Under the pieces are notes generated by a model. That model was not told the DNA's origin and ran no database searches. It saw only the letters and a list, made by a program, of their open reading frames with translations. From NCBI GenBank assembly GCA_027068795.1, contig JAMOMB010000077.1, positions 1 through 42,625 on the forward strand: a DNA stretch of 42,625 nucleotides, written 5' to 3'. Made by a program: the position numbers and the translations under genes. This document shows positions 6,164-40,064 of the stretch, piece by piece (positions within the stretch are counted from its first letter, which is position 1; each line of letters starts with the position of its first letter). This DNA is from Sedimenticola sp. GTDB lineage: Bacteria; Pseudomonadota; Gammaproteobacteria; Chromatiales; Chromatiaceae.

Positions 6164-6796
6164 TCAGTATTCCTGAACCTGAAACAAATATTCCTGCAAT
6201 CCGTTTTTCAACAGCCTGGACTGCGACGCACGAAAACCGGGCATCAGTTTTTCCAGCACCCGTTGCGGATAACAGGGCGCTCCCACAGCGCCGCCGGAAG
6301 CGGCCTGGCGTCGCATGACATCGCTGGAAAGCACCTCGAATTGCATCGGCTGCGCCGCCATATCCCCCCGGGTGTAAATGAATGCATGCAGCCATGCGCC
6401 GGGATTGCACTGCCGGATGAGATGCCGGCTGAATTGGGGCAACAATTCCTTGTCCAGGTAGTTCAGTCCGTCCCAGGCCAGAATCAGGTCCAGCTTGTCC
6501 GCCATGTTCAAAGGCAGAATGCGCGTAAAATCCGGATCCGGCTCTTCTTCCTTCGGCGGGGACAGATCCGGCAGTACATGCAACACATCCCCGATATGAT
6601 AGCGGCAGCGAAAGCGCGAGAAGAATTCAATATGATTCCCGGACGCTGCCGCCAGATCCAGAATATGGTACTTGTGTTCCGGCTCGCGCTCCAGGGTTGC
6701 CACCAGAGAGGCGAACGCCGGGCAACCCAGCTCTTCAGACTGTGATTGCGCCGGCGCAGTATCGTTGACGTTCTTGGGCTTGGCAAAAAGAGCCAT
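6164..6796 (-). CDS. Methyltransferase-like protein, function unknown
   Basis: 210 residues, probably cytoplasmic. A short Ala/Gln-rich start is followed by a Rossmann-like SAM-binding segment: HKYHILDLAAASGNHIEFFS fits motif I (hydrophobic-D-x-A-x-x-x-G), and KLDLILAWDGLNYLDKELLPQFSRHL fits the post-II/III region of class I methyltransferases. The substrate cannot be read from sequence, and motif I is less Gly-rich than usual, so activity is uncertain. It lies 20 bp downstream of bactofilin on the same strand and 7 bp upstream of the acetyltransferase, so co-transcription with bactofilin is likely. Confidence 0.7.
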   Translation of the reverse strand: MALFAKPKNVNDTAPAQSQSEELGCPAFASLVATLEREPEHKYHILDLAAASGNHIEFFSRFRCRYHIGDVLHVLPDLSPPKEEEPDPDFTRILPLNMADKLDLILAWDGLNYLDKELLPQFSRHLIRQCNPGAWLHAFIYTRGDMAAQPMQFEVLSSDVMRRQAASGGAVGAPCYPQRVLEKLMPGFRASQSRLLKNGLQEYLFQVQEY

Positions 6797-7476: not shown

Positions 7477-8847
7477 TTATTCAAAAATAACCGACAACGC
7501 CTGGGAAAGGCGCTGCACCGGAATCACCTCGATGCCTTTGACCGCCTTGCGCGGCCGGTTGGCTGCCGGCAGGAGAATGCGCTTGAATCCATGTTTGGCG
7601 GCTTCGCGCACACGGTCTTCCCCGCTGGGAACCGGCCGGATCTCCCCCGCCAGCCCCACTTCACCAAAAGCGGCAAGCCCCACGGGCAGGGGGCGGTCGC
7701 GAAAGCTGGACAGCACCGACAACAGCACCGGAAGATCCGCCGCCGTTTCCGTCACCCGGACCCCGCCCACGACATTCAGAAAAACATCCTGATCCACCAT
7801 GCCGATACCGCCATGGCGGTGCAGCACCGCCAGCAACATGGCCAGGCGATTCTGCTCCAGCCCCAGGGCCACCCGCCGCGGATTGCCCAGGGAGCTTTGA
7901 TCCACCAGCGCCTGCACTTCCACCAGCATGGGGCGGGTGCCCTCGCGGGTGACCAGGATGGCGCTGCCACATACCTGTTCTTCATGGCGCGAAAGAAAAA
8001 TGGCCGAGGGATTGCTCACTTCCTTGAGCCCCTTGTCCGTCATGGCGAACACGCCCAGTTCATTCACAGCGCCAAAACGATTCTTGATCGCCCGCACCAA
8101 ACGGATCTGGCTGCCGGCCTCGCCTTCAAAATACAACACGGTATCCACCATATGCTCCAGCACCCTGGGCCCGGCCAGCGCTCCTTCCTTGGTGACATGC
8201 CCCACCAGGAACAGGCTGATGCCGGTCTGCTTGGCAAAGCGCACCAGTTGCGCGGCGGACTCGCGCACCTGGGCCACGGCGCCGGGCGCGGATTGCAGCT
8301 GTTCCGAATAAAAAGTCTGGATGGAGTCCATGACCATTACCCTGGGGCGATGCTTGTCCGCCAGCGCCAGTATGCGCTCCACACAGGTTTCCGTGAGCAA
8401 CTGCAACCTGTCCACAGGCAACCCCAGGCGCGCCGCCCGCATGCTGATTTGCTCGGCAGACTCCTCACCGCTGACATACAGGGGCTGCATATGCGCCGAA
8501 AGACTTGCCAGGGCCTGAATCAACAGCGTGGATTTTCCGATCCCGGGATCGCCGCCGATCAGCACCACGGAACCCTGCACCAGCCCACCGCCCAGCACCC
8601 GATCCAGCTCGGACAGTCCGGTGGCGGTGCGCCGGGTGTTTTCCACACCCACCGCGGACAGCGGGCGAATCATGGCGGCAGCCGCATCACCGCTGTAACC
8701 CGCGAAGCGTGGCCCTGGACTTGTCCCCGCCTGGGGCATTGTTTCTTCCAGGGTGTTCCAGGCGCCGCAGTCGGGGCATTGCCCGGCCCACTTGGGAAAA
8801 CTGCCGCCACAGTCCCGGCAGGCGTACAAGGTTTTTGTTTTTGCCAT
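7477..8847 (-). CDS. radA: DNA repair protein RadA
   Basis: 456 residues, the usual RadA length. The N-terminal zinc finger has CRDCGG and CPDCGAW; the RecA-like ATPase has Walker A GGDPGIGKST and VMVMDSIQTF; the RadA KNRFG motif (AIKNRFGAVNELG) and a C-terminal Lon-protease-like domain (LPVLLSVLSSFRDRPLP, AGEIRPV) follow. RadA is a DnaB-like translocase that drives branch migration in recombinational repair. Its ATG at 8847 overlaps the alr stop codon by one base (TGATG), so translation is probably coupled. The order dnaB-alr-radA is conserved in many gammaproteobacteria. Confidence 0.96.
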   Translation of the reverse strand: MAKTKTLYACRDCGGSFPKWAGQCPDCGAWNTLEETMPQAGTSPGPRFAGYSGDAAAAMIRPLSAVGVENTRRTATGLSELDRVLGGGLVQGSVVLIGGDPGIGKSTLLIQALASLSAHMQPLYVSGEESAEQISMRAARLGLPVDRLQLLTETCVERILALADKHRPRVMVMDSIQTFYSEQLQSAPGAVAQVRESAAQLVRFAKQTGISLFLVGHVTKEGALAGPRVLEHMVDTVLYFEGEAGSQIRLVRAIKNRFGAVNELGVFAMTDKGLKEVSNPSAIFLSRHEEQVCGSAILVTREGTRPMLVEVQALVDQSSLGNPRRVALGLEQNRLAMLLAVLHRHGGIGMVDQDVFLNVVGGVRVTETAADLPVLLSVLSSFRDRPLPVGLAAFGEVGLAGEIRPVPSGEDRVREAAKHGFKRILLPAANRPRKAVKGIEVIPVQRLSQALSVIFE

Positions 8848-28903: not shown

Positions 28904-29653
28904 TCAGTGCTGAAAGAATGACCGCGCCGCGCCGGCCAACCCGGATAACGCATACAGTGCGAAAACCAGAAACAGGATCAGCGGGGGTTGCATCAATATG
29001 ATCGCAAACACCAGAGCGATACCGACCACTGTAAAAAACGGCACCTTTCCCTTCAAATCGATGTGCTTGAAGCTGTTATAACGCACGTTGCTGACCATCA
29101 GCAAACCACATAAACCAGTGATCAGGCCGGCAACAACGGCCAGATTTTCCCCCGAAATATCATGGTCTACCGCCACCCAGACGCTTGCAGCCACAATCGC
29201 GGCAGCCGACGGACTTGGCAGCCCCTGAAAATAGCGATCATCCGCCACATCCAGTTTGGAATTAAACCGCGCCAGGCGCAAAGCCGCTCCGGCAGTATAG
29301 ATGAAAGCCGCCAGCCAACCCGGTTTTCCCAGGGTATACAGCGCCCATTCGTACATGACAAGGGCCGGAGCCAGGCCAAAGGCCACCATGTCGGAAAGGC
29401 TGTCATATTCCGCGCCAAAAGCCGTCTGGGTATTGGTCATGCGCGCCACCCGGCCATCCAGCCCATCGAGGATCATGGCAATGAAAATCGCCACTGCGGC
29501 CTTTTCGAACTGGGCGTTCATGGCCGCCAGCACCGCATAAAAACCCGAGAACAGCGCAGCAGTCGTGAACAGATTGGGCAACAGATATATCCCCCTGCCA
29601 CGCTTGTGGGAGTGAGCATCCAGCTCTACTACATCTTTTTTCGATTCGTTCAT
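28904..29653 (-). CDS. pssA: CDP-diacylglycerol-serine O-phosphatidyltransferase
   Basis: 249-residue inner-membrane enzyme making phosphatidylserine, the precursor of phosphatidylethanolamine. The CDP-alcohol phosphatidyltransferase motif is complete: DGLDGRVARM, then G, then the D...D pair in AEYDSLSD. About eight hydrophobic helices follow the basic N-terminus. The ATG is at 29653. In related genomes pssA follows ilvC; here the plus-strand transporter pair intervenes. Confidence 0.95.
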   Translation of the reverse strand: MNESKKDVVELDAHSHKRGRGIYLLPNLFTTAALFSGFYAVLAAMNAQFEKAAVAIFIAMILDGLDGRVARMTNTQTAFGAEYDSLSDMVAFGLAPALVMYEWALYTLGKPGWLAAFIYTAGAALRLARFNSKLDVADDRYFQGLPSPSAAAIVAASVWVAVDHDISGENLAVVAGLITGLCGLLMVSNVRYNSFKHIDLKGKVPFFTVVGIALVFAIILMQPPLILFLVFALYALSGLAGAARSFFQH

Positions 29654-29969
29654 GAAGCTAAGTATAGCCTGATAAATTAAGGAAACCCAAAGCTGTATTA
29701 CCGCAAATACCGAGGAAGCTCCGATCAGGGTCTGTCAATACGATTCCAACAGACGCTGCCGGGACGGTTTTTCACCCGGCAAGGCGGAAGGAGTGAAGTG
29801 TAGTGACACTACAGGAACGAAGATAACGCCACTGGGCGGAAAACCACCCCAGACCCGGGGGCTGCGCCCATTGGATTGGTGCCACTAACCCGGTGGGATT
29901 CATGGCGGCTGTGGCCTATACTGGTATGCTTATATTCGCTTGCCATCAACCACCACCGTTCTTGCACCC
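29654..29969. other. Intergenic region with two hairpin-forming motifs
   Basis: About 316 bp between divergent pssA and the transporter. TGCCGGG/CCCGGCA (29757-29763 with 29775-29781) is followed by a GGCGGAAGGAG segment and the 15-bp palindrome TGTAGTGACACTACA (29799-29813). The arrangement looks like a repeat element. I see no convincing promoter pair for the transporter. Confidence 0.5.
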
Positions 29970-32729
29970 ATGAACCGAATCCTCAGCTATTTTTCCAATC
30001 ACCCCTGGATCGGGCTGGGAATCATTCTGTTCATCTCCATCATTGCCGGCTCCCAGATCGACAAACTGGAAGTCCGCATCTCCGCTGACGAAATGCTGGT
30101 GCAAAACAATGAGGAGCAGGATTTCTACCGCGAGGTGCGCCGCCTGTTTGGTGATGAACAAATCAGTCTGCTCTATTTGCAAGCAGATGATCTTCTTGCC
30201 CGGAACAAGCTGGAAGCCTTGAAAACAGCCATCCTGAAGCTGGAAAAGCTCCCCTTCGTCAGCCGGGTGGAAAGCCTGTTTTCCATTCCCTGGGTCAAGA
30301 CCGTCGATGGCTACCTGGACAAGAAACCCTATCTCGACAAGCTACCGGAAACCCCGGAACAAGCACAAAGCATTCTTGCGGAAGCGCGGAAGAACCCCTT
30401 TCTGAGGAATCTGTTGCTTTCCCCCGACAAAGACGTCATGGCCGCAGCCATCGTGCTGAAAAAAACAGATTCACCGGAAGCGGACTGGAATGATGAAACC
30501 ATTACCAATGCACTGAACGATATTGCAGCGGAACTGGCCCCCTTCTACAGCACAGCATTTTCCGTAGGGTTTCCCCAGGTTCGCACGGAAATTGCCGAAC
30601 GCATCCGCGCAGAACAGGCCCGGCTGTTCCCCCTGGCAGTGGCTGCGCTGCTGATTGCCCTGTTCTTGCTGTTGCGCCAGCTTATCGACATCCTGCTGCC
30701 CGTTCTCACCGCCGGCTTCAGCATCCTCTGGACATTCGGCTTCATGGGAGCCGTCGATATTCCCATCAATGTGGTCACCTCCATCATTCCGATTCTGCTG
30801 ATCATCGTCGGCTCGACGGAAGATATTCATCTTTTGTCAGAGTTCCGGCATGGACAAAAGGCCGGCCTCGATTCCCAGGCGTCTCTCAAACACATGTCCC
30901 GACGCATGGGCAGCATCGTGCTGCTAACTTTTATCACCACCTATCTGGGCTTTCTTTCTGTCGGCCTGAGTCGCATAGAAGTGCTATGGCAGTTCGGTCT
31001 GGTCGCCTCCACTGGCCTGGCATTGAATTTTCTGGCCACAATCATTCTCATTCCATCGGTTCTGGCCCTGGCGGGCAAGTGGCAACTGGATGGAAAATCC
31101 AGGATATACAGCAACAGGAGCCGCCTATTGGCAAAACGCTATTGGGACTGGCTATGGCGGCACCGGCGCGCCGTCATCGGCTTCTTTGTCGCTTGTACGC
31201 TGATCGCCATCATTGGCATACCCCGTATTCATATCAACCACAATGCCATCGACAGCCTGGGAGCCGATTCCGAGGTGCGCCAGAAAATCGAATTGATCAA
31301 CCAAAACCTCGCTGGCCTGGAGTCCCTCTCCATCATTGTGGATTCCGGCATCGAAGATACTTTTCTCAAGGTTCGCTACCTGGAAGAACTGGAAGCAATA
31401 CAAAAACACATCCACAAGAAAGGCTGGTCAGAATCCAGCACTTCGTTTGCCGACTATCTTTCTCTGCTCAACGCCGCATTTCAGGAACTGGATGATCCTG
31501 TAATGCCGGAATCGGATGATATTGTCACGGAGTTGATGATCTTTCTCGATCACAAGGACGTGAAAGCCTATATTTCGCAAGACTTCAGCCGCGCCCGAAT
31601 CCTGGTGCGCCACAGTATCGAGTCCAGCGAACAACTGCAGCTTGTCATCTCCGAATTACAGCAATTCATCGATCAGAATCTCGATACCGGGCTCCGCGCC
31701 AGAATCACCGGAGATTCGGTGCTGACACTATCGGCCACCAACGCCATGATCAGTGGCCAGCTGCAATCCATCGCCATCCTGCTGGTGATCATCGTATTGA
31801 TCATCGGATTGCTGTTTACCGAGCTGAAAGTCGGCCTGCTGGCGGCCTTGCCGAACTTCTTTCCCGTTATCACCATGTTCGGCTTCATGGGCTATATGCA
31901 AATCCCCCTGAACATCGGCACCACCATGGCCGCCGCAATCGCCATCGGCATCGCAGTGGATGACACCCTGCATTTCATGTTGCGTTACAACCGCGAGCTA
32001 AAAGCCAGAAAAAGTCACGACAGCGCCATGGAACACACCATCTATGGCGAGGCACTTCCCGTGGTCTCCACTTCCGTTGCTTTGATTGCCGGATTTCTGG
32101 TTTTCACCCAGGCCAGCTTTGAACCCATCATCCAGTTTGGCATACTCGGCGCCCTGGTGATCGCCACGGCCCTGATCGCGGATTTCATCATTACGCCCCT
32201 GGCCGTGTCTTCCCTGCGCCTGGTCACCATCTGGGACGTGCTTTCCCTGCGCCTGCGAAAAAAGGTGCTGGAAAAAAGCCCGTTGTTCAGGGGACTCAAG
32301 CCCTGGCAAATCCGCCAGTTCATTCTGTCTGGAAGAATGGTGGAATACTCCAGAGGGGACTTCGTATTTCGCCGCGGCGAGGTGAGCACGGAGCTGTATG
32401 TTCTACTCACGGGAAAGGTGGACATTTGCCTTCCGGGGCAGGAGGGCAGTTGCAATCGGCTGGAACAATTTCATCCGGGAGATGTTTTCGGGGATGTCGC
32501 CCTGTTCGCCAACATTCCCAGAAAAACCGACGCCATGGTGGTCGAGCACAGCACGGTGCTGGTGCTCACCAGAGAAGGCATAGAACGCACCATGCGCCAC
32601 AGGCCTCTCATCTCGGCCCGGATTTTTTCCAATCTCACTGCCGATCTGAGCCGGCGCATGATCAAATTGATCAGCAAGCAGCAACTCAAGGCCAAATCCG
32701 GCAACAGCGACAAAGGAGGAAACCCATGA
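29970..32729 (+). CDS. MMPL/RND-type transporter fused to a cyclic-nucleotide-binding domain
   Basis: 919 residues from the ATG at 29970 (a TTG at 29940 is less likely). It is an internally duplicated RND/MMPL protein: TM1, a periplasmic domain (about 35-215), a sterol-sensing-like helix bundle (about 220-390), TM7, a second periplasmic domain (about 425-605) and a second bundle (about 610-770; IAIGIAVDDTLHFMLRYNREL). The C-terminus (about 778-900) is a cNMP-binding domain: LFRGLKPWQIRQFILSGRMVEY, ELYVLLTGKVDI, and phosphate cassette FGDVALFANIPRKTDA at about 840, where the canonical Glu is Asp. It would export a lipid-like or hydrophobic substrate with cytoplasmic gating by a nucleotide; both are inference. 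It overlaps the next gene by 4 nt (ATGA). Confidence 0.88.
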   Translation: MNRILSYFSNHPWIGLGIILFISIIAGSQIDKLEVRISADEMLVQNNEEQDFYREVRRLFGDEQISLLYLQADDLLARNKLEALKTAILKLEKLPFVSRVESLFSIPWVKTVDGYLDKKPYLDKLPETPEQAQSILAEARKNPFLRNLLLSPDKDVMAAAIVLKKTDSPEADWNDETITNALNDIAAELAPFYSTAFSVGFPQVRTEIAERIRAEQARLFPLAVAALLIALFLLLRQLIDILLPVLTAGFSILWTFGFMGAVDIPINVVTSIIPILLIIVGSTEDIHLLSEFRHGQKAGLDSQASLKHMSRRMGSIVLLTFITTYLGFLSVGLSRIEVLWQFGLVASTGLALNFLATIILIPSVLALAGKWQLDGKSRIYSNRSRLLAKRYWDWLWRHRRAVIGFFVACTLIAIIGIPRIHINHNAIDSLGADSEVRQKIELINQNLAGLESLSIIVDSGIEDTFLKVRYLEELEAIQKHIHKKGWSESSTSFADYLSLLNAAFQELDDPVMPESDDIVTELMIFLDHKDVKAYISQDFSRARILVRHSIESSEQLQLVISELQQFIDQNLDTGLRARITGDSVLTLSATNAMISGQLQSIAILLVIIVLIIGLLFTELKVGLLAALPNFFPVITMFGFMGYMQIPLNIGTTMAAAIAIGIAVDDTLHFMLRYNRELKARKSHDSAMEHTIYGEALPVVSTSVALIAGFLVFTQASFEPIIQFGILGALVIATALIADFIITPLAVSSLRLVTIWDVLSLRLRKKVLEKSPLFRGLKPWQIRQFILSGRMVEYSRGDFVFRRGEVSTELYVLLTGKVDICLPGQEGSCNRLEQFHPGDVFGDVALFANIPRKTDAMVVEHSTVLVLTREGIERTMRHRPLISARIFSNLTADLSRRMIKLISKQQLKAKSGNSDKGGNP

Positions 32730-33511
32730 ACAAGACGATCCGCTATCTTGCGCTGCTCATGATCCTGATCCTCCCTGTCAGGACTCTTGCCACTGAGGAT
32801 ATCAGGCCCTATTTCAGCGCTCCGTACACGGGAGAAAAGGTGCAGCAATACAGCATCACCCTCCCTCTTTCCCGTCACGAAAAAGCCACCTTCCACATTC
32901 CCAAAGACTGCGGAAAACTCAACAGCCATCTTCTGGAAGGCAGCGGGCGCTGGGGCACCCGCATCGAAAGGCGTTTATGGATAAAAGCAGATGACGACTG
33001 CCGCTATCTGAATTTTTTGCGGCAATACCCCAGAAATGCGGAACGGGATTTCGTCAGCACCTATGACTTTTACAATGCAAGAATCAGCGACCTGCCCCTG
33101 CGCCCCGGCTGTGACCTGGATCTGCTGTTGCGCAACCCCTCTGCATGTCCTCCTTCCCTGCCGGGAATGCCCAATTTCTCCATGTTCATGAACAACATGC
33201 CCTCGCACCAGGAACAACCCAGGGAGCTGCAAGACTGCCGCTTTGAAAACGGCGTGTTTCGCGGCTACATCTACCACACGGGCATGGGGCTGCAATGCAG
33301 AAAAGACCCGAAGGCGCCGGGCTACCGCATTCTGTCCGTGGATTTCGCCAACGTAAATGGCGATCAATGCCAGGACGCGGTTCTGCGCATGGTGCCCATC
33401 GGGCGGGGAGGACGCCCTTCCCTGCTGATCCTGCCCCTGACCCGTTGCAGTGAAACCGAAAAGTTTTCCCTGCCTTCGGACAGCAACTATCCCAGGTTCG
33501 GCCCCTATTGA
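32726..33511 (+). CDS. Secreted Cys-rich protein of unknown function, coupled to the transporter
   Basis: 261 residues from the ATG at 32726, with GGAGG in the end of the transporter gene. A signal peptide (YLALLMILILPVRTLA) is cleaved near residue 22. The mature protein has eight cysteines (in PKDCGK, DDDCRY, RPGCDL, SACPPS, LQDCRF, LQCRKD, DQCQDA, LTRCSE), suggesting four disulfides, and a Pro/Met-rich middle (PSLPGMPNFSMFMNNMP). I recognise no domain. The 4-nt overlap with the transporter implies a shared process, perhaps as substrate, periplasmic carrier or adaptor. A bidirectional terminator follows. Confidence 0.8.
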   Translation: MNKTIRYLALLMILILPVRTLATEDIRPYFSAPYTGEKVQQYSITLPLSRHEKATFHIPKDCGKLNSHLLEGSGRWGTRIERRLWIKADDDCRYLNFLRQYPRNAERDFVSTYDFYNARISDLPLRPGCDLDLLLRNPSACPPSLPGMPNFSMFMNNMPSHQEQPRELQDCRFENGVFRGYIYHTGMGLQCRKDPKAPGYRILSVDFANVNGDQCQDAVLRMVPIGRGGRPSLLILPLTRCSETEKFSLPSDSNYPRFGPY

Positions 33512-33522
33512 TCCAGCAACAA

Positions 33523-33549
33523 AAAAGCCGGCGGATTCCGCCGGCTTTT
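33523..33549. terminator. Bidirectional rho-independent terminator
   Basis: A perfect 12-bp stem (AAAAGCCGGCGG, loop ATT, CCGCCGGCTTTT) with A and T runs on both sides, between the convergent secreted-protein gene and ilvC. Confidence 0.9.
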
Positions 33550-33567
33550 CCACAACCCTGGTGTTGC

Positions 33568-34599
<1,032 letters not shown>

Positions 34600-37280: not shown

Positions 37281-40064
37281 TCAAAGCTTGTTCTTGTGGC
37301 AAAGCGTACAGGTTACCGGCTCGCCTTTGGCTACGAAAACCGTCTTTTCACCGTCATCATCCTTGTCGAGGACACGATCCACCGCAGCCCGTGACAGTAC
37401 GCTGCCCTCGCCATTCTGCCCATGGCAGGCTCTGCAGGCATCCTTATCACGCTCGGCCAGTTGCTCGTGCCCACCGGCAGAGAACCGGGTATTGCCGACG
37501 GGGTGCATACCGTGCGGCCCGTCCAGGGTATTTCCCAGATCCCCCGTATGGCACACGGAGCATTCGGTGATGGTTCCCGCATGCCCCTGCAGGTCAATCG
37601 CCGCCTTGTTGTCGTTGGAGAAGGGGTTCTTGTTCGGCCAGATGGCATGGGTGCTGCCATGGCAGCTGCTGCAAGCCAACTCGCCATGCCCCTTGTCATC
37701 ATTTGCGCCGCTGAGGCGATACAGCGCTTCATCCGAGGCAAACCGTGAGTTGGGAAAATCGAGCAGCGCCAGATTGGCGCCGCCGCCATTGGCAATATGA
37801 TCCGACAGCCTGTAGGTCATGCGCAACCGCAACCCATCGGGATTGCCCTTGCTGTCCACGGCGTTTACCAGCACATCCTGCAAACGACCATCGCGTTTCA
37901 GCTTTGCAACCTGCATCACATCACCAATGTGACAGGACTGGCACTTGGGCTCGGAAGCCCAGGGAACGCGCTTGGCCATATTCGCGCCTGCCGGGAAAGG
38001 CATGCTGGCAAAGTTTTCGGAAAAATCATCACCCACCTGGGTCATCTGGCCATGGCAGTCCTGACACACGACTCCGGCGCCGCCCATGGCGCCGCGCAAG
38101 CATTTGCTGCGCTTGCCGGGATGGCAGGCATAGCAGGTTGCCCCCAGCAGGGCTTCCACATCCAGACTCCCGCGTTGGTCGGGCGGCGGCATCACCGGGA
38201 ACAGATCGCCATACAGCGCCGGGTCGGCATTCGGCAGATTCCCGTGAACGCTGTGCATGGCGCGGGACATGCTGATATGCTGCGTTTGCTTCTTGCCATT
38301 GTCATCATTGGGGCCAAGATGGGCCAGATCCAGTGCTGCGGAATAATGGCAGTTGGCGCAAACCACATTCGGGGTACTGCCATCCGCATTGGTGCCGTCA
38401 TCATTCAGGGGCGCGAGATTGGTGCCGTTCTTGTAATCATGCAGGCGCATGATATTAATCTTGGCGGCATTGATCACCTGCTGTTCCGGCGTATCGCCCA
38501 GCACCATGCTGGCGTCGGTGAGAAAATCCACACTGGAGTATTTGAAGTTGGCAATATCATCACATACCAGGGTATTGGTCTGATCATAGTCACAAACGCT
38601 TTGCGAGGCGTGACAAATGGCGCAATCCGCCTCTGATGCAACCGGCGTCACCACATCGATGGAAGCCAGCACCCTGCCACTGCCGTCTTTTGCTTCCACC
38701 CGCATCAGCGGATAGGCATTGGTGCGCCCCTCATCGTCGATATAACCGGTAGGAATGCCTTCTGCGGCAAATCGCTGGAAATCCCTGACGGTATAGCCAA
38801 AAGGAAAATTGACGAAGAACGGGTAGTCTTCCACGAAACCATGGAAAGGCTTGGCCTGGTTCACCGCATAGGGCGCACCCTTGCCTGGCATTTCCGCCTG
38901 CTCTGCGATCAGGTTTCCGGGATTCCGCAGATAGAACTCCTCCACATTGGGCGCAGGCAGGCCCAGATCCGGCTCAAATGGAAAGGCGGCCAGAACGCCC
39001 GGCGGATACAGCTTCTCATAGGCAAGAAAACCAATGGCCAGACCAGTGGGGCCACTGGCGATATCCCAGAAATTGGACTTGAAAATGCCCTTGGGCAAAT
39101 CGTTCTGATTGGTGCTGGTCACCGAATCCGTGGCGATAGGCGGAAGATGCGGTTGGTTTGCATCGACAATATTGGAAGGCACCGCCCTGTAGGTAAGATG
39201 AATTCCATCTTTCGGCTCCAACAATTCTGGCTCCTGACCTTTCCTCAACACCTGCGCATTCAGCACATTGTAGGGCGGCAGGATGCTGAACATGCGGAAG
39301 TCCTGGTCGGCGCAGTGCATGCCCAGATCATTTGCCGCAAGCACGGTGTAGCTTCCTGTTACGGGAGGCGGCGGATTGCTTCCCCCGGCATCACAGTTCC
39401 GGGGCGCTTTTTCCACATCTTCTTCATCGAAAGAGCCGTCCGCCAACTGGGCGCGCACCCGGCAAGGAACCACACCTTCGAGGGTTACCTTGATCTTCCA
39501 TTTTCCGGATTCGATGCTTGCCTCACCCAGCTTCTGGCCGGAGGCCACGGACAGCAGGGTGACCTTTTGCCCGCTCTCGCCCTTTCCTTCCGCCTTGAGC
39601 TGGGATTTATCCTCTTTCCACTTGGCTTCTTTGATGCTTACAAAAGAGGAGGATGGCGGATCGTCGCCTCCCAGGTCACAATTCCGGGGCGCGTTCTTCA
39701 CTTCTTCCTCATCATAAGCGCCGGGCGATTCAGCACGCACACGACAAGGCACCACATCCTTGAGCGTTACCTTGATTTTCCATTTTCCGGATTTGATTGT
39801 TGCTTCTCCCAGAACCTGGCCGGAGGCCACGGACAGGAGCATGACCTTTTGCCCGCTAATGCCTTTTCCTTCCACCTTGAGCTGGGACTTGTCTTCTTTC
39901 CACTCGGCCTCCTTTATGCTCAAGGCGTATTCGTCATCATCATCACTATGGCTGTATGGCGTCGCAGCAAGAGAAGCGGCCTCTGCCAATACAGATCCCG
40001 GCATCACCAGCCCCAATAATAAAATTACCAGGTAAAATGCTCGACGGTGCGGTAGAAGTTTCAT
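37281..40064 (-). CDS. Nonaheme c-type cytochrome with duplicated N-terminal module
   Basis: 927 residues, exported (signal peptide about 1-28, VILLLGLVMPGSVLA). Residues 49-130 and 143-225 are a near-identical tandem repeat (SIKEAxWKEDKSQLK ... SGKWKIKVTL ... CRVRA ... PRNCD), each with two cysteines and probably a beta-sandwich. A YTVLAANDLGMHCADQDFR domain follows at about 239. Nine CxxCH heme sites begin at residues 481, 569, 644, 667, 708, 798, 835, 877 and 919. It probably carries electrons in the periplasm or at the cell surface; the donor and acceptor are unknown. No cytochrome-maturation or partner oxidoreductase gene is adjacent. AGGAG lies 11 nt before the ATG. Confidence 0.9.
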   Translation of the reverse strand: MKLLPHRRAFYLVILLLGLVMPGSVLAEAASLAATPYSHSDDDDEYALSIKEAEWKEDKSQLKVEGKGISGQKVMLLSVASGQVLGEATIKSGKWKIKVTLKDVVPCRVRAESPGAYDEEEVKNAPRNCDLGGDDPPSSSFVSIKEAKWKEDKSQLKAEGKGESGQKVTLLSVASGQKLGEASIESGKWKIKVTLEGVVPCRVRAQLADGSFDEEDVEKAPRNCDAGGSNPPPPVTGSYTVLAANDLGMHCADQDFRMFSILPPYNVLNAQVLRKGQEPELLEPKDGIHLTYRAVPSNIVDANQPHLPPIATDSVTSTNQNDLPKGIFKSNFWDIASGPTGLAIGFLAYEKLYPPGVLAAFPFEPDLGLPAPNVEEFYLRNPGNLIAEQAEMPGKGAPYAVNQAKPFHGFVEDYPFFVNFPFGYTVRDFQRFAAEGIPTGYIDDEGRTNAYPLMRVEAKDGSGRVLASIDVVTPVASEADCAICHASQSVCDYDQTNTLVCDDIANFKYSSVDFLTDASMVLGDTPEQQVINAAKINIMRLHDYKNGTNLAPLNDDGTNADGSTPNVVCANCHYSAALDLAHLGPNDDNGKKQTQHISMSRAMHSVHGNLPNADPALYGDLFPVMPPPDQRGSLDVEALLGATCYACHPGKRSKCLRGAMGGAGVVCQDCHGQMTQVGDDFSENFASMPFPAGANMAKRVPWASEPKCQSCHIGDVMQVAKLKRDGRLQDVLVNAVDSKGNPDGLRLRMTYRLSDHIANGGGANLALLDFPNSRFASDEALYRLSGANDDKGHGELACSSCHGSTHAIWPNKNPFSNDNKAAIDLQGHAGTITECSVCHTGDLGNTLDGPHGMHPVGNTRFSAGGHEQLAERDKDACRACHGQNGEGSVLSRAAVDRVLDKDDDGEKTVFVAKGEPVTCTLCHKNKL

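Follow-up and report, generated by a model that had tools for sequence, protein, structure and literature searches.

A transporter ending in a cyclic-nucleotide-binding domain and a secreted cysteine-bearing protein form a conserved two-gene unit in Chromatiaceae

Contig JAMOMB010000077.1 of Sedimenticola sp. (GenBank assembly GCA_027068795.1), whose full 42,625 nucleotides we call the window, encodes on its plus strand an MMPL/RND transporter that ends in a cyclic-nucleotide-binding (CNB) domain, followed directly by a gene for a small secreted protein. Transporter and secreted partner are a conserved, self-contained two-gene unit: the pair is adjacent and in the same order at every readable locus that we found, and the partner occurs with only one clade of CNB-fused transporters, in which the phosphate-binding cassette of the CNB domain is altered. 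The features of the locus are as follows.

29970..32729, plus strand: MMPL/RND transporter of 919 residues with two MMPL repeats and a C-terminal CNB domain (Pfam and translation of the open reading frame).
32340..32597, plus strand: CNB domain of the transporter (Pfam cNMP_binding), residues 791-876 (Pfam and PDB matches).
32487..32534, plus strand: phosphate-binding cassette FGDVALFANIPRKTDA, with Asp842 replacing Glu and Arg851 retained (alignments).
32726..33511, plus strand: secreted partner of 261 residues, with an N-terminus that resembles a signal peptide by eye and eight Cys (open reading frame and family alignment).
33350..33376, plus strand: FG-GAP-like loop NVNGDQCQD, partner residues 209-217; most relatives have DVNGD...D (family alignment).
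33523..33549, no strand assigned: 12-bp hairpin downstream of the pair, a possible two-way terminator (folding energy).

The window's genome (G000, contig 77) measures 2.29 Mb and is 84% complete. A protein search found the partner in 21 of 141 relatives, and profile searches found it in 31 of 210 genomes of the family and in 2 of 369 genomes across the class, namely the window's own and G100. The transporter was matched at E<=1e-90 in 56 of the 210 family genomes, which by our own sorting comprise 32 with an ortholog (at least 52% identity) and 24 with more distant matches only; the partner is present in 30 of the former and in none of the latter. The two genomes with an ortholog but no partner, G050 and G477, have contigs that stop at or within the transporter; the G477 transporter is frameshifted as well. 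The 31st partner-bearing family genome, G011, shows just 107 residues of the transporter, as a fragment on a different contig from the partner, so that its pairing is unreadable. All counts from genome searches are lower bounds, with two candidates scored per genome in the phylum, four for the family transporter and up to 12 for the family partner.

At all 31 readable loci with an orthologous transporter, 30 in the family plus the one in G100, the partner lies directly downstream on the same strand, which answers positively the question, raised in a preliminary description of this DNA, of whether the secreted gene always follows. G100, at 49% identity, belongs to another family; at the near end, seven transporter loci at 78-88% identity come from Sedimenticola, Chromatiaceae and Thiolapillus metagenome-assembled genomes. 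No stray copies of the partner were found: 30 of the 31 family genomes that have it carry it behind the transporter, G011 being the unreadable one. In 15 partner-bearing regions read by eye, the flanking genes vary between genera while the pair persists, and because the two genes stay adjacent as their surroundings change we regard them as a self-contained unit, as had been proposed; chance neighbourhood was rejected on the same adjacency. In the window the partner reading frame begins at 32726, inside the transporter stop codon (ATGA), giving the 4-nt overlap described before, and the same overlap occurs at 16 of the 31 loci, that of G043 included. The transporter start is supported by orthologs that align from the same first Met.

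At four of the 31 loci genes look broken or are cut short. The partner is cut by the contig end in G014 and G561, and pair genes look broken in G030 and G474. In G030 (L120), two identical 300-nt sequences occur, one inside the transporter gene (6177-6476) and the other where the secreted gene begins (8208-8507); both genes of the pair thus look interrupted by one element, or misassembled. In G474 (L093) the secreted gene seems split by a frameshift, its first part running into the next gene, and a sequencing error is possible.

CNB-fused MMPL transporters are not confined to this clade. Beyond the class, at least 18 of 397 other genomes of the phylum encode nearly full-length fusions at 27-32% identity to the window transporter (one of the 18 has an internal stop), and paralogs within the family have 33-43% identity. 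We searched with the partner profile next to CNB-fused MMPL genes at 32 further loci, 31 of them distinct, and found the partner at none, the best chance match having E 0.96, while four positive controls all gave E<=1e-73; at L050, L054 and L148 less than 400 nt of downstream sequence is available (none at L054), so absence there says little. The idea that the partner follows every CNB-MMPL transporter is therefore false, and the pairing is specific to one transporter clade. In a tree of 62 transporters, made by a quick method with no bootstrap, the 28 partner-bearing transporters form one side of a branch with a Shimodaira-Hasegawa-like approximate likelihood ratio (SH-aLRT) support of 100. 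A single partner-bearing clade together with exclusive pairing suggests that the partner was probably gained once. The tree omits the fragments L048, L053, L055, L105, L106 and L151 and the internal-stop rows L057 and L136, and includes 5 of the 11 loci that lack a CNB domain; alignment A2 omits L048, L053, L054, L055, L057 and L058. One of the CNB-less transporters, L058, nests among CNB-bearing rows, which indicates that the domain can be lost, and other relatives at 36-39% identity also end before it.

The wider CNB-MMPL proteins of the phylum, for which we found no established name, share the MMPL-MMPL-CNB order at 27-43% identity. They differ from the window transporter in their cassette, where 25 of 29 rows retain Glu and none has Asp, in the lack of the partner at the loci searched, and in two cases by an added domain: the paralogs L051:1057-4194 and L052:1006-4188 (G019, G076) carry at the C-terminus a GGDEF domain that scores 29.8 bits in L051 and 50.8 in L052 over a cut-off of 23.8, placing transporter, CNB and cyclase-type domain on one chain, with a GGDEF signature motif that is degenerate by eye. 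Beside two distant CNB-MMPL genes we noted, also by eye, a DUF3450-like secreted protein (L059, G110) and an AAA protein of NorQ/CbbQ-like type (L056, G119).

The transporter itself belongs to the MMPL/RND family. Pfam MMPL matches it in two stretches (109.7 bits against a cut-off of 20.5, E 1.8e-31), which, with the CNB domain at residues 791-876, bears out the internally duplicated transporter with a C-terminal CNB domain of the preliminary description. Its best NCBIfam match is HAE3 (TIGR00921), at 205.9 bits under a cut-off of 351.9, and it also falls short of the hopanoid transporter HpnN models (89.8 against 751.85 and 39.7 against 1100) and of BstA (28.4 bits against 1400), so it is not placed in any of these subfamilies. 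MmpL4 structures in the PDB match it by sequence, and the acidic and His residues of the motifs in transmembrane segments 4 and 10, which are presumably functional, are retained among its orthologs. RND pumps are powered by the proton gradient, and those of MMPL type, such as MmpL3 and MmpL7, often export lipids or other hydrophobic molecules from the inner membrane; we know of little on their periplasmic partners and regulation. With the HAE3/MMPL family (TIGR00921, PF03176; MmpL4, MmpL3, HpnN) the window transporter shares the two-repeat MMPL architecture, and it differs from HAE3 and HpnN proteins in its C-terminal CNB domain, its own partner and its scores below their cut-offs. The locus does not read as a tripartite RND pump, since the companion gene matches no family and the adjoining genes lie on the opposite strand (no search was made for pump components at other loci).

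The closest parallel in arrangement is the BstA-BstB-BstC sterol transport system of methanotrophs (PMC10942540), in which soluble envelope proteins likewise work with an RND transporter of the inner membrane. According to that paper, BstB is similar to PhnD, a phosphonate-binding protein, and BstC groups with TatT-type proteins, whereas the secreted protein of the window matches no family; the pair is accordingly not assigned to BstABC, and we rejected the partner as a membrane-fusion protein or as a protein of BstB or BstC type on the same ground.

The CNB domain scores 62.6 bits, well over its cut-off of 27.5 (E 3.5e-17), and matches solved CNB domains of CRP/FNR regulators, PKG, PKA, SthK and cyclic-nucleotide-gated (CNG) channels; family topology predicts it to be cytoplasmic. 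In such domains the cassette Glu contacts the ribose and the cassette Arg the phosphate of the bound nucleotide. The window cassette is complete save for Glu to Asp, as first described: Asp842 aligns with the Glu of solved PKG and CRP-type domains, and Arg851 is kept, so that one of the two residues expected of a cAMP- or cGMP-responsive domain is changed and the other present. Among 28 partner-bearing rows the Glu position holds Asp in 26 and Glu in two (L044, L047). In 29 partner-free rows, of which 28 are distinct (one gene appears as both L049 and L125), the position holds Glu in 25, another residue in four (L052, L054, L122, L124) and Asp in none. The Arg is present in 28/28 and 28/29 rows, respectively. 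Given this distribution, in the aligned proteins the Glu-to-Asp change is a mark of the partner-bearing clade and not a quirk of the window gene; as the rows are related by descent, the counts reflect few events. The domain as a whole has 80-89% identity among the closest eight orthologs, and outside the genus its identity to the window is 37-46%, compared with 61-72% for the second membrane block.

The secreted partner has no convincing solved relative. Against Pfam and NCBIfam the window protein gives nothing at E<=1, and against the PDB by sequence nothing at E<=10; three PDB chains that match the profile of the partner family at E 0.87-1.6 were dismissed as chance. Its eight cysteines, at 62, 92, 129, 141, 171, 191, 215 and 241, are all present in the window protein, as the preliminary description counted them; in the family only six (62, 92, 129, 141, 171, 191) are invariant or nearly so, judged from an 18-row alignment (A1) that covers 18 of 21 matches and omits the interrupted L025 (G030) and the fragments L028 and L029. 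C215 is restricted to the window's close relatives (8 of 24 rows), and because C241 accompanies it in all but one of these, the two suggest a fourth, recent disulfide. The earlier statement that the protein has no recognised domain agrees with the database searches but overlooks a DxNGDxxxD loop, with D213 and D217 present in all 24 rows and N211 in 22 of them, and weak FG-GAP matches at E<=0.1 among relatives (FG-GAP_3 in 6 of 18 members, best 0.0018; FG-GAP in 3 of 18, best 0.0016). The printed scores of these relatives lie under the gathering scores, short of what would make them FG-GAP repeat proteins, and the window partner, with its degenerate loop NVNGDQCQD, matches neither FG-GAP_3 nor FG-GAP. 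From its motif, the loop may bind calcium.

Sources of cyclic nucleotides were searched for in 25 chosen genomes: 10 of the 15 in the window's genus, 11 of the 19 readable partner-bearing ones outside it, and four partner-free genomes of the family. In the genus neither class III (PF00211) nor class I (PF01295) cyclases were found in any of the 10, while a class I or III cyclase is present in all 11 partner-bearing genomes outside the genus and in three of the four partner-free ones. CYTH proteins, which are not distinguishable from triphosphatases, occur in 8 of the 10 genus genomes and in 14 of 16 genomes searched for them; in G008 and G013 no class I, class III or CYTH-type candidate was found. 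The CRP equivalog scores over its cut-off in all 10 genus genomes, so a lack of cAMP signalling is not proved, and the genus has a CRP with no obvious cAMP source. GGDEF matches number 18, 27, 15 and 17 in four genus genomes.

We hold it to be slightly more likely than not that the pair is one envelope machine, made of an RND pump for lipids or other hydrophobes, a periplasmic partner, and a CNB regulatory or docking module. In this machine a proton-driven inner-membrane pump of MMPL/HAE3 kind would extract or export hydrophobic, probably lipid-like cargo and lift it to its periplasmic domains; the small disulfide-bonded partner would receive the cargo or license its release, for example as acceptor, chaperone or lid; and the cytosolic CNB domain, inherited from the wider CNB-MMPL family as a regulatory or docking module, would tune or anchor the pump. 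The pocket is altered from Glu to Asp in the partner-bearing clade, which suggests that the domain probably does not bind ordinary cAMP, at least as far as the window's genus is concerned. For the envelope machine speak the adjacency at 31/31 loci amid changing flanks, the presence of the partner in 30 of the 32 family genomes with an ortholog and in none of the 24 with more distant matches, the single partner-bearing clade, the MMPL matches, and the retained acidic and His residues of transmembrane segments 4 and 10. Partner distances, compared in 24 of the 31 pairs, point the same way: once the membrane parts are allowed for, they track periplasmic domain 1 of the pump best (partial r 0.68), ahead of the second periplasmic domain (0.50) and the CNB domain (0.24). 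In 2000 permutations the observed r was never reached for either periplasmic domain and was reached about 18 times for the CNB domain, which weakly suggests that the partner contacts the pump in the periplasm.

Several points weigh against the envelope machine. Two of the 15 genus genomes lack the pair, both of them incomplete (G005, 84%, with no transporter match at all; G012, 92%, with only a 36% paralog). Synteny is a sign of selection for linkage and not of contact. Domains evolve at different rates, which confounds the mirror-tree comparison of distances. AlphaFold models were poor (mean predicted local distance difference test, pLDDT, 49.8 for the partner over 7 rows and 38.7 for the transporter over 8 rows) and lend a complex no structural support. 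Only family membership points to the class of cargo, and the NCBIfam cut-offs for HAE3, HpnN and BstA are all missed. At the extreme, the two genes would be mere neighbours, linked by descent from one shared origin and with no common function. That reading draws on the lack of direct interaction evidence, and we hold it to be very unlikely, as the genes are adjacent at 31/31 loci while their flanks change between genera and no stray copies occur.

The remaining readings concern what the CNB domain does. It may have no ligand at all, serving as a structural or docking module while the pair works as an ordinary constitutive exporter. The cassette Glu is lost altogether in 4 of the 29 partner-free rows, L058 and the relatives at 36-39% do without the domain, and outside the genus it has diverged further than the second membrane block; against this, the cassette Arg is kept in all 28 partner-bearing rows and the domain is well conserved among the closest orthologs, and we regard a ligand-free module as possible but doubtful. 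The preliminary description proposed nucleotide-gated export, in which cAMP or cGMP would bind the domain and open the exporter, with the secreted protein as its dedicated partner. The clear CNB assignment, the retained Arg, the CRP equivalog in 10/10 genus genomes and the cyclases in 11/11 partner-bearing genomes outside the genus speak for it, but the change to Asp in 26/28 rows, the absence of class I and class III cyclases from the 10 genus genomes, and CYTH proteins that cannot be told from triphosphatases and are missing from G008 and G013, make such gating unlikely in the window's genus; the proposal does not stand as it was put, and CRP leaves it some room. A possible ligand is cyclic di-GMP (c-di-GMP), which would tie lipid or envelope export to the switch between motile and sessile life. 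Four genomes of the genus have 15 to 27 GGDEF matches each, whereas neither class I nor class III cyclases turned up in the 10 searched, the paralogs L051 and L052 carry GGDEF straight after the CNB domain, and the CRP-like Clp of Xanthomonas reportedly binds c-di-GMP with a changed cassette, on which literature searches gave nothing. Yet bacteria of this kind commonly have many GGDEF proteins, we identified no c-di-GMP motif, and the Asp is also found in genera where a class I or III cyclase is present; we consider this coupling improbable. A more elaborate version, a c-di-GMP-controlled RND lipid exporter whose CNB domain was retuned by the Glu-to-Asp change on gaining an obligate, disulfide-bonded partner with a calcium loop, is in our view quite improbable.

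Around the pair, both neighbours lie on the minus strand, a pssA-like gene upstream and a convergent ilvC-like gene downstream, named from their translations. The preliminary description ended the pair in a strong bidirectional terminator. The segment 33512-33556 does fold stably (-21.1 kcal/mol, z -5.95, with none of 200 shuffles equally low), but the hairpin at 33523-33549 has A-U outer pairs and a short T-run and is absent from the output of a terminator scan that requires five T, so termination there is predicted and likely rather than demonstrated. That scan found 13 terminators against 3.8 expected, a promoter scan found two against 2.6 expected, and Rfam gave no match above its gathering score over 29500-33700. 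A long spacer, 29654-29969, lies 5' of the transporter and has no second copy within the window. Elsewhere, two 220-nt direct repeats that are 79% identical (39419-39638 and 39701-39920) lie inside a minus-strand open reading frame of 927 residues at 37281-40064.

CNB domains on membrane transport proteins are known. MFS fusions, SthK and CNG channels have a cytosolic CNB domain in common with the window transporter, which differs from them in its RND/MMPL fold. Fusions of CNB domains to MFS transporters have been described (PMC10710835), and the accessible part of that paper names MFS, not RND, fusions. We found no description of an MMPL/RND-CNB fusion in the literature, most subscription journals being outside our coverage; the partner family and its exclusive pairing seem not to have been described before. 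The pump type and the sensor domain are thus each familiar, and the novelty appears to lie in an unmatched secreted family exclusive to one clade.

For the biology of these bacteria, the c-di-GMP reading would, if true, provide a two-gene route coupling the second-messenger state of the cytosol to periplasmic hand-over of lipids. The wider CNB-MMPL family offers a natural experiment, with one clade of CNB pumps that has the partner at 31/31 loci and an altered pocket acquired on the same or a nearby branch. As related clades have neither the partner nor the pocket change, both the role of the partner and the ligand of the CNB domain can be tested by comparing clades.

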